A stretch of DNA of 64,000 nucleotides, taken from positions 628,622 through 692,621 of the forward strand of contig NC_015315.1 of the NCBI RefSeq assembly GCF_000193375.1, given 5' to 3'. The translations under genes were made by a program, and so were the position numbers. This DNA is from Thermoproteus uzoniensis 768-20 (GTDB taxonomy: Archaea; Thermoproteota; Thermoprotei; Thermoproteales; Thermoproteaceae). Below the pieces are notes generated by a model that searched no databases, was not told the origin of the DNA, and was given only the letters and a program-made list of their open reading frames with translations. Shown here one piece after another: positions 8,640-61,633 of the stretch (position 1 is its first letter; each line of letters opens with the position of its first letter).

Positions 8640-9248
8640 TCAAGGCACTTCAATATTAGCGTGTCTCTTGGCCAAATCGTGCTCGTTCTTGCCCAGCCGC
8701 CGCATCAAGTCGGCCACCACGGCGTCGAGGACCACCATCGCCGTGTCCTCGAACAGTGTGCCGAGCGGCGAAAGGGGCTCGTGGAGGCCCAGTATCTGCC
8801 TGGCGAAGTAGTCGTCCATGACGGCCACCTTGGTCCTGCCCGGGACGAACACTACTATGTCGGCGAGTTTGCCCAACGGCGAGTCGGGGTATGTGGTTAT
8901 GGCCACCACGACGGCGCCCATCTTCTTGGCGGCCTCGGCGGCGGCCACCACAATCTGGGTAGTCCCGCTGCCCGATATCGCGACCACTATATCGTCTTTG
9001 TCCACTGGAGGCGTTATGGTCTCGCCCAACACGTACGAGTGTATCCCGAGGTGGCGTAACCTCATGGCGAAGCCCCTGGCGACGAGCCCGCTACGGCCCA
9101 TGCCGACTACCAAAACGGCTCGCTCTTCCTTATATGCAGATACTAGGAGATCTGTAAACTTCCCTATACTATTTAAATCGAGCTTGTTCAGAGAATATAG
9201 AATAAAATTTGCAATCTCTAGAAAAGCCGCTTTAAATGTCTCTGACAT
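8640..9248 (-). CDS. hxlB: 6-phospho-3-hexuloisomerase (SIS domain)
   Basis: 202 residues of one SIS domain. It interconverts 3-hexulose-6-phosphate and fructose-6-phosphate; in archaea lacking the pentose-phosphate branch this reverse ribulose-monophosphate route makes ribulose-5-phosphate. Motifs: VLVVGMGRSGLVARGFAMRLRHLG near residue 45, AISGSGTT near 92 and ITTYPDSPLGKLAD near 117; the C-terminal helix carries a Glu/His pair typical of PHI proteins. The partner hexulose-phosphate synthase is not in the window. Its promoter (gctttaaaaatatag) overlaps the end of speH, so it can be read alone or after speH. Confidence 0.9.
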   Translation of the reverse strand: MSETFKAAFLEIANFILYSLNKLDLNSIGKFTDLLVSAYKEERAVLVVGMGRSGLVARGFAMRLRHLGIHSYVLGETITPPVDKDDIVVAISGSGTTQIVVAAAEAAKKMGAVVVAITTYPDSPLGKLADIVVFVPGRTKVAVMDDYFARQILGLHEPLSPLGTLFEDTAMVVLDAVVADLMRRLGKNEHDLAKRHANIEVP

Positions 9249-44626: not shown

Positions 44627-44944
44627 CTAGGCGAGGCGCAGAAACAACGCGGCCAGGAAGATCAGCTCGGCCGCCTCGAAGACGGCGTAGGCCTTCCCGT
44701 ATTTGGAGTAGCGGGCCAGATATCCGCCGAAGTAGAGGGGCACGCCGACGAGGTGGATCACGGCGAATGCGGCCACAGCAGGGACGAACACGCCGAGAGT
44801 CAAGGCCCATATATAAAACGCCGCCTCGTAGAGCGCCGCGGCCTTGGCGGCTACGCCGGCCGGATATCTGCCTCTAGGCGAGAAGGCCGCCGTCCACGCA
44901 TGTTTGACGAACATCGGCAAGAACAGAAGCGCCTCAAACAGCAT
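44627..44944 (-). CDS. Small four-helix membrane protein paired with hemerythrin
   Basis: 105 residues with four hydrophobic segments (MLFEALLFLPMFVKHAW, AFYIWALTLGVFVPAVAAFAVIHLVG, LYFGGYLA, VFEAAELIFLAALFLRLA). Several aromatic residues plus His15 and His64 lie in or near helices. The start overlaps the hemerythrin stop by 11 bases, so the two are co-translated. A haem- or quinone-linked role is conceivable but not shown; no family recognised. Confidence 0.7.
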   Translation of the reverse strand: MLFEALLFLPMFVKHAWTAAFSPRGRYPAGVAAKAAALYEAAFYIWALTLGVFVPAVAAFAVIHLVGVPLYFGGYLARYSKYGKAYAVFEAAELIFLAALFLRLA

Positions 44945-45493: not shown

Positions 45494-45516
45494 CTTTAAT
45501 AGTTAACTGTGTTAAC
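45494..45516 (-). promoter_or_regulatory. Hemerythrin promoter with GTTAAC-N3-GTTAAC motif
   Basis: GTTAAC TGT GTTAAC (45502-45516) is a 15-bp element of two palindromic half-sites placed directly upstream of, and touching, the TATA box (45494-45502, aactattaaa on the minus strand). This is the typical place for an activator site in archaea. An equal element is at 47031-47045. Confidence 0.6.
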
Positions 45517-45604
45517 GCAGTTGCGCGAGGCGATAGGGCTGAAAAGTCCGGCACGCCGCCGGGCCTGGGCGGATACATTGTATAATACTAGAGACGGCAG
45601 ACAC

Positions 45605-46111
45605 GTGGCCGAACCTGGCGATATGGCGCCGCGCGCTTCCCTGCGGGGTCGAGGAGGCGTCTGGCAACGCTCGGAGGGACGGGCGCACGTGCCGGCGGAG
45701 GCGCCCGCCGGACTCCACCTCCTCTTCCTTAGAGGCAGATTTCGCGACGAGGTGAACGTGGAGATCTACGACTCGTCGGGCCCCCTCGCCGCGGTCAAGC
45801 TCTTCGTGGGCAGGCCGCCCCACTATGCGCCTTGGGCCGAGGTCTTCAATGTAGCGGGCCGGCTCTACGGCTCCCCCGCGGAGCTCGAGATATACAGATG
45901 GGTCTATTCGGCGTTGCCGCCCGACTCAAACCTCTACGTGGAATATTTCGAGGATGTCCAGACCCGGGCGCAGCTGTCCCGCGGCGTGCCTCCGGCCGAG
46001 ACCAGGCTGGGCGCCGTCCTCTTGAGGGCCGGCTTCCTGGCAGTCTCCGACATGTACTTCCCCGAGGGCGGCAGAGAGGGCGGGCAGAAGATAAGGGCTG
46101 TCAGGCTCTGA
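45605..46111 (+). CDS. Conserved archaeal protein resembling DUF1122
   Basis: About 168 residues. Central FRDEVNVEIYDSSGPLAAVKLFVGRPPHYAPWAEVFNVAGRLYG and the C-terminal LGAVLLRAGFLAVSDMYFPEGGREGGQKIRAVRL recall the archaeal DUF1122 family, a GNAT-like fold of unknown role; I have not been able to check this. GTG 45605 is chosen because tgtataatac lies about 22 bases upstream. The frame is open before it but includes the promoter. Confidence 0.65.
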   Translation: MAEPGDMAPRASLRGRGGVWQRSEGRAHVPAEAPAGLHLLFLRGRFRDEVNVEIYDSSGPLAAVKLFVGRPPHYAPWAEVFNVAGRLYGSPAELEIYRWVYSALPPDSNLYVEYFEDVQTRAQLSRGVPPAETRLGAVLLRAGFLAVSDMYFPEGGREGGQKIRAVRL

Positions 46112-46156
46112 CGCCGCTGGGGCGGAAGCTTATTAAATCCGCCGCGAGTGAGGTAT

Positions 46157-46966
46157 ATGGAGAGGAAGTGTTTCAAGGCTGTGGGCTGCGTATCGGCGTT
46201 GGGCATAGGGACTTCCGGCCTCGGCGGCGATCTCTGGCGGGCCGACACTTCTAAGGACGAGCGGCACCTCGCCGTCCTCGCCAACGCGTTGGCCAACGGC
46301 ATATGGGTCGTGGACACCTCCGAGATATACGGAGGGGGCCACGCCGAGGAGCTCGTGGGCAAGGCCCTATCGACCTTCGCCAAGGAGGATAGGGACAAGG
46401 TGGTAGTGGTCACCAAGTTCTGGCCGGACAACGCCGAGAAGATAGTCCTGGCGGCTAAGGCGAGCGCCAGGAGGCTGGGGACCTACATCGACATATACAT
46501 GCCCCACGGCCCACTCCCCGACATATGCAAAGCCGTGAAGGCCTTCGAGGAGCTGGTGGACAGAGGCGTCATAAGGTTCTGGGGCCTCAGCAACGTCGAC
46601 GCGCGCAAGATAGAGGAGGCGAGGAGCTGCGCCAAGAGGCACGACATAGCGGCGGTGGAAAACGTCTACAACTACATCAACAGGCTCGACGAGCACGAGG
46701 CACTGCCGTACGCCCAGCGCGAGGGCATACTCTATCTGGCCGCCAGCCCTCTGGCGAGGGGGGCCGTAGTGGAGAACTACAGAATTAGGCGCATCGCCGA
46801 GAGGCTGGGCAAGACGCCGGTCCAAGTGGCGTTGCGCTGGCTCATGGACAAGCCCGCCGTGGTGCCCATACCGAGGACCACAAGGCCCGAGGGCGTCCTC
46901 GAATTCGCCGGCGCCTACGGCTGGAGGCTCCCCGACGAATACGCCAAGGAGCTCGAGGTCCGCTGA
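46157..46966 (+). CDS. Aldo/keto reductase
   Basis: 269 residues of the AKR TIM-barrel family, NADPH-dependent reduction of carbonyls. Catalytic residues: Asp in VVDTSEIYG with Tyr, Lys in VVVTKFW and His in IYMPHGPLPD (replacing the common xxHWP). Cofactor site RWLMDKPAVVPIPRTTRPEGVLEFAGA near the C-terminus. ATG 46157 lies about 23 bases after ttattaaat; a GTG nine bases earlier is in frame. Substrate unknown. Its stop is about 65 bases before the GTTAAC operator. Confidence 0.88.
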   Translation: MERKCFKAVGCVSALGIGTSGLGGDLWRADTSKDERHLAVLANALANGIWVVDTSEIYGGGHAEELVGKALSTFAKEDRDKVVVVTKFWPDNAEKIVLAAKASARRLGTYIDIYMPHGPLPDICKAVKAFEELVDRGVIRFWGLSNVDARKIEEARSCAKRHDIAAVENVYNYINRLDEHEALPYAQREGILYLAASPLARGAVVENYRIRRIAERLGKTPVQVALRWLMDKPAVVPIPRTTRPEGVLEFAGAYGWRLPDEYAKELEVR

Positions 46967-46973
46967 GGCGCGA

Positions 46974-46979
46974 GTTAAC
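46974..46979. promoter_or_regulatory. Single GTTAAC half-site
   Basis: An extra GTTAAC lies just after the aldo/keto reductase stop, 57 bases before the double site at 47031. It may be a weaker binding site or chance. Confidence 0.25.
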
Positions 46980-47030
46980 CACATCTTCGCGGCGAGTTGG
47001 CAGACCTAAGCCGATAGACGGCGGGAGGTG

Positions 47031-47059
47031 GTTAACGGGGTTAACCAGAAACTATAACC
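47031..47059 (+). promoter_or_regulatory. Promoter of the nitrate-transporter relic with GTTAAC-N3-GTTAAC motif
   Basis: GTTAAC GGG GTTAAC (47031-47045), flanked by G and C so the dyad extends to ggttaac/gttaacc, lies five bases upstream of the TATA box actataacc (47051-47059), which is 25 bases before ATG 47080. Same motif and position as at the hemerythrin promoter. Confidence 0.6.
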
Positions 47060-47079: not shown

Positions 47080-47292
47080 ATGCCGTCTCGGAACGAGATA
47101 GGGGATAGCCCCGCCATGGGGCCAGCCGCGGGGACCATCGCGTTCTTTGCCGGCTTTGCAACGGTTGCCCTATTCGGCATCACTGCGAAGATGCTCGCGC
47201 CTATTCTGAAGCTCTCCATAGTCGAGGTTTCTCGGCTTACGGCGATGCCGGCTCTCACAAGCTCTCTGTTGAGGATACCTTTCGGCGCTTCG
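47080..47292 (+). pseudogene. narK: NarK-type nitrate/nitrite transporter, 5' remnant
   Basis: The first about 70 codons are intact: a polar N-terminus, then FFAGFATVALFGITAKMLAPILKLSIVEVSRLTAMPALTSSLLRIPFGA, which matches helices 1-2 of MFS nitrate/nitrite transporters (GSLLRIPFG is typical). Translation then runs into a different frame, with no further membrane segments, and ends by 47367. The downstream DNA continues as the end of narJ. The promoter is intact, so a truncated peptide could be expressed. Confidence 0.75.
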
Positions 47293-47591
47293 ACTTCTCC
47301 AAGGAAGCTAACCTATACGCGACCTACCACATATACGGCGACAGCCGCAAGAGGGGGCCCGCCCTAGCCAAGCTCCTGTCCATATACTCCTCCAGGGGCT
47401 TCAAGCCCCCGCCGGACGAGTTGCCCGACTATCTGCCCACTATGTTGAGGTTCGTGGCAGAACGCGGGCCGCATCCAGCGGTGGCGAGGCTGGCCGCCAA
47501 GGCGGCCGAGAGGATAGCGAAGGCGTTGAGGAGCGAGGGCAACCCGTACGCTCCCCTAATGGAGGCCGTCGCCGAGTTGCTGAGGCAGTAA
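47271..47591 (+). pseudogene. narJ: NarJ (nitrate reductase chaperone), 3' remnant
   Basis: In the +2 frame relative to the narK start, the sequence reads FDFSKEANLYATYHIYGDSRKRGPALAKLLSIYSSRGFKPPPDELPDYLPTMLRFVAERG and on to a TAA at 47589-47591. This matches the C-terminal two thirds of NarJ (ESRDRGQAMVDLL and ELPDHLPLYLEYL in the bacterial protein). The N-terminal part, and the narG/H genes expected between narK and narJ in some nitrate operons, are missing. It has no start of its own. Confidence 0.75.
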
Positions 47592-60569: not shown

Positions 60570-61633
60570 GGCAGAGGAGTCCCGCAGTTCATGCAGAACT
60601 TGGCGTTCGGCGGGTTCCTGAACCCGCACTTGGGGCATATCTTCTCCTGAGGCAACTGCGCGCCGCAGTTCATGCAGAACTTAGCCCCGGGAGGATTCAC
60701 GAAGCCGCATCTCGGGCAGACCACGCCTTGCTGTTGCTGGGCCAGCTGAGTCGACACTATGGTGGAGGGGGGCTGGCCGCCCCCGCCGCTCCCTCCTCCA
60801 GCCCCTCCGCCCGCCCCGCCTCCTCCGGCAGGCGCGCCTCCGGCGGCCCCTCCGCCTCCCGCAATCGGGCCGAACAGCGGCGGGATTATGGCTATGCCCG
60901 CCCCCACGGCGGCTCCAGGGCTTTTGCCCAGCTCCGCCGCCGCCTTTTCGACCGCCTCCATGCGCAGGTAGTCGGCCGCGCTGACGCCGGCCGCCCTTAT
61001 GTAGAACAGCCTGTCGCGCCATATGGGGTCCGTGACGTCCAGCCCCTCGAACCTCAAGTCTATCAGCTCCAGACCCAGCCTCTTGAAATAGGGATCGAGC
61101 GCGTTCTTGAGGACGAAGGACGCCTGCTCCAGCGATTGGTATATTGTGAAGATGGACTGTTTGGAGAGCTCGGCCATAAGCGACTCGTTGAAGTAGCCTC
61201 TGAGGAACTGCTGGAGGTCCTCCGTAGTGTACACGCCCTGTCCCCCCACCACCTGGGTCACGAAGAGGGCCGGATCGGCGACGCGGAACCAGGCAGAGCC
61301 GTAGAACTGTATCGGCGCGAGCTCCACGGTCTGCCCCCTGCCGCCGAACGGGAGCTTGTACTGCTTAAGCGAGACGTATATGACCGTGGCGACGAACGGC
61401 GACTTCTCGAAGCCCGCTATTCTGCTCAACGCGGCGGTGAGCAGGGGCAGATTCATGGTGGTTAACGTGTGGCGTCCGGCGCGGAACACGTCGTATACCT
61501 TCCCGTCTCTGAAGAAGACGGCCGCCTGCCACTCCTCCACGACCAGCTGGGCGCCCCACTCGATCCTGTCGACGGGGTACCGCCAGATTATCTCGTCCTC
61601 CTTGGGGTTAACCCACTGTATGACCTGCGGCAT
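60566..61633 (-). CDS. SPFH-domain protein with two C-terminal zinc ribbons (YdjI-like, cassette gene 2)
   Basis: 355 residues. Residues 1-230 are an SPFH/band-7-like domain of the YdjI/virion-core-like type (IQWVNPKEDEIIWRYPVDRIEWGAQLVVEEWQAAVFFRDGKVYDVFRAGRHTL, VTQVVGGQGVYTTEDLQQFLRGYF). A hydrophobic AAVGAGIAIIPPLFGPIAG segment leads to a Gly-rich linker, followed by two zinc ribbons (VCPRCGFVNPPGAKFCMNCG and ICPKCGFRNPPNAKFCMNCG) that are near-exact repeats. In bacteria such proteins sit at the membrane and are linked to stress or lipid domains. It is two bases after the upstream gene. Confidence 0.9.
   Translation of the reverse strand: MPQVIQWVNPKEDEIIWRYPVDRIEWGAQLVVEEWQAAVFFRDGKVYDVFRAGRHTLTTMNLPLLTAALSRIAGFEKSPFVATVIYVSLKQYKLPFGGRGQTVELAPIQFYGSAWFRVADPALFVTQVVGGQGVYTTEDLQQFLRGYFNESLMAELSKQSIFTIYQSLEQASFVLKNALDPYFKRLGLELIDLRFEGLDVTDPIWRDRLFYIRAAGVSAADYLRMEAVEKAAAELGKSPGAAVGAGIAIIPPLFGPIAGGGGAAGGAPAGGGGAGGGAGGGSGGGGQPPSTIVSTQLAQQQQGVVCPRCGFVNPPGAKFCMNCGAQLPQEKICPKCGFRNPPNAKFCMNCGTPLP

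Follow-up and report, generated by a model that had tools for sequence, protein, structure and literature searches.

The palindrome GGTTAAC-N3-GTTAACC is probably the operator of a nitric oxide and denitrification regulon in the Thermoproteaceae, hot-spring archaea that include Thermoproteus and Pyrobaculum, and a small protein encoded divergently from the qNor gene is its most likely predicted regulator. Both the operator and the candidate regulator are apparently new, although of a known kind; no description of the motif was found in the literature searched. They matter because little is known about how denitrification is regulated in archaea.

In the window, i.e., the whole 64-kb stretch of DNA that was analysed, the sequence GTTAAC-N3-GTTAAC is present at 45502-45516 and at 47031-47045, and no further match is found with up to two mismatches. 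The earlier note had reported both pairs at exactly these coordinates, each just upstream of a TATA box, for a hemerythrin gene and for a narK remnant, and both assignments were borne out; each pair lies just upstream of a TATA-like box and a start codon (Table 1). The TATA-like box of the hemerythrin gene would be placed as for a leaderless transcript. The note also mentioned a single GTTAAC at 46974 inside an SPFH gene: the site is there, but it lies 8 bases past the stop codon of an aldo/keto reductase gene. Further single sites are located at 61461 and 61607.

Table 1. Operators, TATA-like boxes and genes at the hemerythrin and nar-remnant loci (window coordinates)
Feature	Position	Strand	Details
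Small membrane protein gene	44627..44944	-	overlaps hemerythrin 3' end; same pair in two Pyrobaculum-genus genomes (G002, G006)
Hemerythrin-like di-iron protein gene, 179 aa	44934..45473	-	PF01814, 1.8e-21; ATG 45473
Hemerythrin TATA-like box, TATTAAAG (complement of CTTTAATA)	45494..45501	-	28 to 21 nt before ATG
Hemerythrin-promoter operator, CGTTAACACAGTTAACT on - strand	45501..45517	-	27 nt 5' of ATG; abuts/overlaps TATA-like box
nar-remnant operator, perfect, GGTTAACGGGGTTAACC	47030..47046	+	33 nt 5' of ATG
nar-remnant TATA-like box, CTATAACC	47052..47059	+	from sequence
narK 5' end, 71 codons	47080..47292	+	63-68% identity to the intact NarK proteins of two congeners, whose narK genes have the same operator
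narJ 3' end	47289..47591	+	other frame, joined to narK fragment; matches C-terminal part of G015 NarJ, which follows narH

The host genome, a single contig of 1,936,063 bases, was searched for sites by pattern, and the matrix scan was run on the 64-kb window. The exact pair occurs three times in the 1.94-Mb genome (hemerythrin, nar remnant and qNor) against a chance expectation of ∼0.07 per genome, and the reversed control does not occur at all; the scatter at chance frequency that the earlier note had named as speaking against its reading is thus not what is observed. GTTAAC pairs with any spacer of 0-30 bp number five in the whole genome, three of which have the 3-bp spacer. As estimated from the other spacers, the probability of three or more pairs at this spacer is ∼5e-5, and that of such clustering at any one spacer ∼0.01. 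When the window was scanned with a matrix built from the sites of relatives only, the nar-remnant and hemerythrin operators were the two best matches (25.8 and 12.3 bits), the next-best score being 8.6 bits. The genome also has one-mismatch sites at 8716 (AT-rich region), at 792103 (5' of an ammonium transporter gene) and at 1727902 (inside an open reading frame); they lie off the canonical distance and were attributed to chance.

The third exact site of the genome is located 34 nt before the start of the qNor gene. This gene is a single open frame of ∼719 aa with a NorB cytochrome c-like domain in its N-terminal half (PF22085, 9.8e-25), and this domain, fused in a single long chain, identifies the product as a quinol-type NO reductase. 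At both the nar remnant and qNor, the site has the extended form GGTTAAC-N3-GTTAACC-AGAAA and a TATA-like box comes after it. The family sample (Thermoproteaceae) comprised 19 genomes, and the fuller element in relatives is the 17-mer GGTTAAC-N3-GTTAACC. It is present at all seven qNor promoters of the family (with one degenerate half, carrying 3 mismatches, in three Pyrobaculum-genus genomes), in front of five of five nirS genes, and at three of four narK genes, namely the window remnant and the two intact congeneric narK; the more distant narK of G003 is devoid of it. In G002 the element is also found at nosZ and at a ctaB-type UbiA prenyltransferase gene, and the exact pairs of relatives include the nosZ promoter of this genome and the qNor promoter of G006. 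None of the eight narG promoters examined carries it.

A search of the family that ignored gene identity and allowed one mismatch to the 17-mer recovered 14 sites. Ten correspond to qNor, nirS, nosZ, narK or ctaB promoters (window narK remnant included), one lies 5' of degraded nar genes (G011), one stands 5' of a membrane gene at a distance of exactly 34 nt (G013), and two are elsewhere and unexplained. With qNor behind the third genomic site and only two of the 14 family sites elsewhere, the enrichment at respiratory and NO-handling promoters of Thermoproteales anticipated in the earlier note is indeed observed: one operator stands at the promoters of several NOx-reduction genes. At up to two mismatches the counts are not above control (74 against 78, a single genome contributing 20 of the latter), and the argument therefore rests on the exact and one-mismatch sites, on promoter position and on gene identity. 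Over the whole G015 genome the reversed 17-mer gives 20 matches, compared with 0-7 in other genomes, which suggests an unrelated repeated element.

The membrane gene of G013 is related to the gene 5' of hemerythrin in the denitrification island of G002 (Pyrobaculum), and a site with two mismatches likewise lies 34 nt before its G003 homologue. In a membrane protein family without Pfam match (L121:1552-2259, L111:1552-2250, L048:4519-5241), the operator precedes the gene by exactly 34 nt in two genomes and the gene adjoins hemerythrin in a third; the family is a probable new member of the regulon. Other matches were set aside. In-frame coding repeats (GTT AAC xxx GTT AAC) fit almost all Caldivirga-like matches, which lie inside open reading frames and are attributed to chance, but not those of the Thermoproteaceae. 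The exact pairs of G008, G010, G016 and G018 are without clear NOx genes and are probably fortuitous; the G016 pair (L021:1501-1515) is flanked by a cation-efflux gene on one side and a divergent gene on the other, the orthologous host site (L008:1501-1515) is degenerate, and this pair is probably another motif or a chance match.

The intact gene order is seen in L105/L193; in G015 it runs narK, membrane protein, narG, narH and narJ. Compared with this order, the joining of a narK 5' end to a narJ 3' end in the window indicates the scar of an internal deletion, which removed narG, narH and the membrane-subunit gene together with the remainder of narK and the greater part of narJ, and left the promoter and the operator intact. 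The narK remnant of the earlier note is therefore correct for the 5' end, the whole being a narK-narJ scar that includes the 3' end of narJ. An operator has here outlasted the operon it controlled, the nar operon having been lost by internal deletion with its promoter untouched. Neither a NarG orthologue nor NirS was found in the host genome, which has kept qNor, the hemerythrin gene and the regulator gene. In the small genome G011, an intact operator precedes seemingly degraded nar genes (L057:5728-7708), in parallel with the nar scar of the window. In G006, tblastn recovers nirS (L101:5545-7149) as three segments with stop codons in frame, and the operator ahead of it is intact.

The hemerythrin domain of the window gene is related to YtfE, its sole PDB relatives; Pfam identified the hemerythrin domain alone in the protein, and no ScdA_N domain. 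Genes of the ytfE type are classic members of NO regulons (PMC9268430). The overlapping small membrane protein gene may encode a functional partner of hemerythrin. The host hemerythrin site is the least typical of the set: with its 27-nt gap it lies ∼7 bp closer to the gene than the canonical distance, it abuts the TATA-like box, and its 12.3 bits compare with ∼26 for the nar-remnant and qNor operators of the same genome. Among nine orthologous hemerythrin promoters, only those of the host and of G003 carry the site. The lack of conservation at orthologues, which the earlier note had regarded as counting against the element, is thus partly found. This off-register position, the lower score and the seven promoters without site might mean that the match is fortuitous or vestigial and that hemerythrin is outside the regulon. 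However, we consider this unlikely, as an exact pair is expected by chance so rarely in a genome, as the site of G003, although degenerate, is located at the canonical 34 nt, and as hemerythrin is encoded in or beside the denitrification island in two Pyrobaculum-genus genomes. The proposal that an unidentified archaeal regulator of NOx genes still controls hemerythrin is therefore well supported for the regulator and plausible, on weaker grounds (the gap and the two of nine orthologues), for hemerythrin. Because the site is closer and abuts the TATA-like box, control at this promoter may differ, by repression or in another register.

The distance between the end of the 17-mer and the start codon is 32-36 nt in 23 promoters (two nirS gaps were counted directly from the sequence, and for ctaB the GTG at canonical distance was used as the start codon). 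A single palindrome serves both sides with the canonical gap between the divergent cytochrome c and nirS genes of G001 and G002, and between qNor and the regulator gene in G014 and G015; in the host genome the regulator gene is 63 nt from the site, off the canonical distance. Leaderless transcripts are ordinary for archaea of the Thermoproteaceae type and are assumed here. If the transcripts are leaderless, the centre of the 17-bp palindrome would be near -42, directly 5' of BRE/TATA, where an activator could help to recruit TFB and TBP. A repressor relieved by NO, as is NsrR, would account for the hemerythrin promoter, where a protein bound next to the TATA-like box would block TBP/TFB; it is nevertheless improbable for the regulon, as the site lies upstream of BRE/TATA at a constant distance in the 23 promoters, which is the position of an activator.

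The candidate regulator, P0001, is a 153-aa protein (G000:C1:1318028-1318486). Relatives are encoded in all seven qNor genomes, in G009 and G011, two genomes that carry nitrate or nitrite genes of another kind or nar remnants, and, outside the family, in one further genome, G048. In G048, the sole 17-mer match of the genome is exact, adjoins the regulator gene and lies 36 nt before a two-gene membrane operon. Both membrane proteins of this operon (L100:7570-9506) are without Pfam match, and the larger resembles, by eye, proteins of the nar clusters of G001, G003 and G006. In G006, the regulator gene is downstream of nirS and ctaB, behind a site. The co-occurrence of the regulator gene with the operator and its adjacency are direct observations; scans of named genomes for the regulator yielded two records only. 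Among 11 regulators compared, residues C11, H33 and C51 are invariant and C48 is nearly so. Profile searches with the C-terminus matched HTH_10 (best 9e-6) and structures of the NarL DNA-binding domain (7.6e-4). PF04967 (HTH_10) is matched by six of the 11 regulators at E<=0.1; P0001 itself is not among them and has no Pfam family above the cut-off. The AlphaFold model (pLDDT 87) consists of a beta-rich N-terminal part of ∼100 residues and a LuxR-type helix-turn-helix (HTH), and a structure search with it retrieved LuxR-type HTH matches only, with low overall TM-scores. No receiver domain, as in the NarL two-component system, was detected in the N-terminal part by Pfam or profile search, and the consensus of the operator is not the TTGAT-N4-ATCAA site of FNR/DNR-type regulators.

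A second family of small HTH proteins, with a Cys-rich tail (C..C..DCxxCPYY), is encoded next to narG, narJ, narK or hemerythrin in Pyrobaculum-genus genomes (L048:5264-5731, L052:10358-10798, L101:9004-9534, L104:5417-5857). The operator and the regulon could be real and the regulator be another protein, such as a member of this family or an unlinked factor, the qNor-adjacent gene being a neighbour with another target. The second family is indeed linked to nar or nir genes in G001, G002, G003, G006, G009 and G011. In the neighbourhood of qNor or narK of the Thermoproteus genomes (host, G014 and G015) and of the G048 site, however, it did not turn up; all of these genomes carry the operator, and P0001 or its relatives are linked in each of them. 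We regard this alternative as quite improbable.

With P0001 as the regulator, the most likely mechanism is a one-component activator responsive to NO or nitrite. As a dimer, the protein would contact the two GGTTAAC heptamers through its C-terminal NarL/HTH_10-like HTH. A metal or Fe-S centre in the N-terminal domain, which contains C11, H33, C48 and C51, would sense NO (or nitrite or the redox state). Binding, ligand and direction of control, as well as the leaderless starts, are inferred. The signal might also be oxygen or the redox state, since the haloarchaeal denitrification regulators of the HTH_10 type include the oxygen sensor NarO (PMC11218638) and a Cys/His site could sense O2. This is doubtful, however: sites at nir, nor and nos and none at the eight narG promoters are typical of regulators that respond to NO, not of those that respond to anaerobiosis, and the persistence of qNor, hemerythrin and the regulator in a host without narG or nirS also argues against it.

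The profile match to NarL DNA-binding domain structures relates the candidate to the NarL/LuxR (GerE) domain, and the paired heptamers of the operator recall the 7-2-7 sites of NarL, which are inverted heptamer pairs. Unlike NarL, the crenarchaeal system has no receiver domain, a 3-bp spacer and an archaeal basal promoter. A NO-responsive regulator was reportedly predicted in Pyrobaculum aerophilum (Cozen et al. 2009, J Bacteriol 191:782), in the same group of organisms and with the same inferred signal as the regulon described here. In haloarchaea, regulators of the NarO/DmsR/Bat type with HTH_10 control denitrification, a NarO-like gene is present in the Haloferax mediterranei nirK-nor cluster, and NarO was called in 2024 the only denitrification regulator described there (PMC11218638). 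The crenarchaeal protein resembles them in its putative HTH_10-like C-terminal HTH but is ∼153 aa long and has its own C/H/C/C pattern. In the euryarchaeon H. mediterranei, a denitrification motif, CGAAYATDKTYG, forms a semi-palindrome 66-79 nt before the nirK, nor and nosZ starts, is weaker and differently placed at nar, and has no assigned regulator (PMC10062603). Both motifs are found at nir, nor and nos genes; the Thermoproteaceae site differs in sequence, is longer and nearer to the start, and has a fixed spacing and a linked candidate regulator. Bacterial NOx regulons (NsrR, DNR, NnrR, NorR, HcpR) include nir, nor, nos, a NarK-like transporter and hemerythrin/dnrN-type genes (PMC1274295), a similar target set under an unrelated regulator and operator sequence. 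Control of nir, nor and nos without narG likens the crenarchaeal regulon to the NO-responsive regulons of bacteria (PMC1274295) and to the haloarchaeal motif (PMC10062603).

Since the nar operon has been deleted and nirS was not found in the host, the regulon reads there as a NO detoxification system made of qNor and the YtfE-like hemerythrin. More tentatively, at somewhat less than even chances, the qNor-adjacent protein may represent a new class of archaeal NO sensors, one-component proteins that combine a NarL-like HTH with a C/H/C/C site for a metal or Fe-S centre. Such a sensor would control nir, nor, nos, narK and hemerythrin genes through GGTTAAC-N3-GTTAACC across the Thermoproteales and would persist as a detoxification switch where denitrification has been lost. 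With the operator and its promoter position defined, some two dozen target promoters identified and a small protein as candidate regulator, the crenarchaeal response to NO becomes directly testable.
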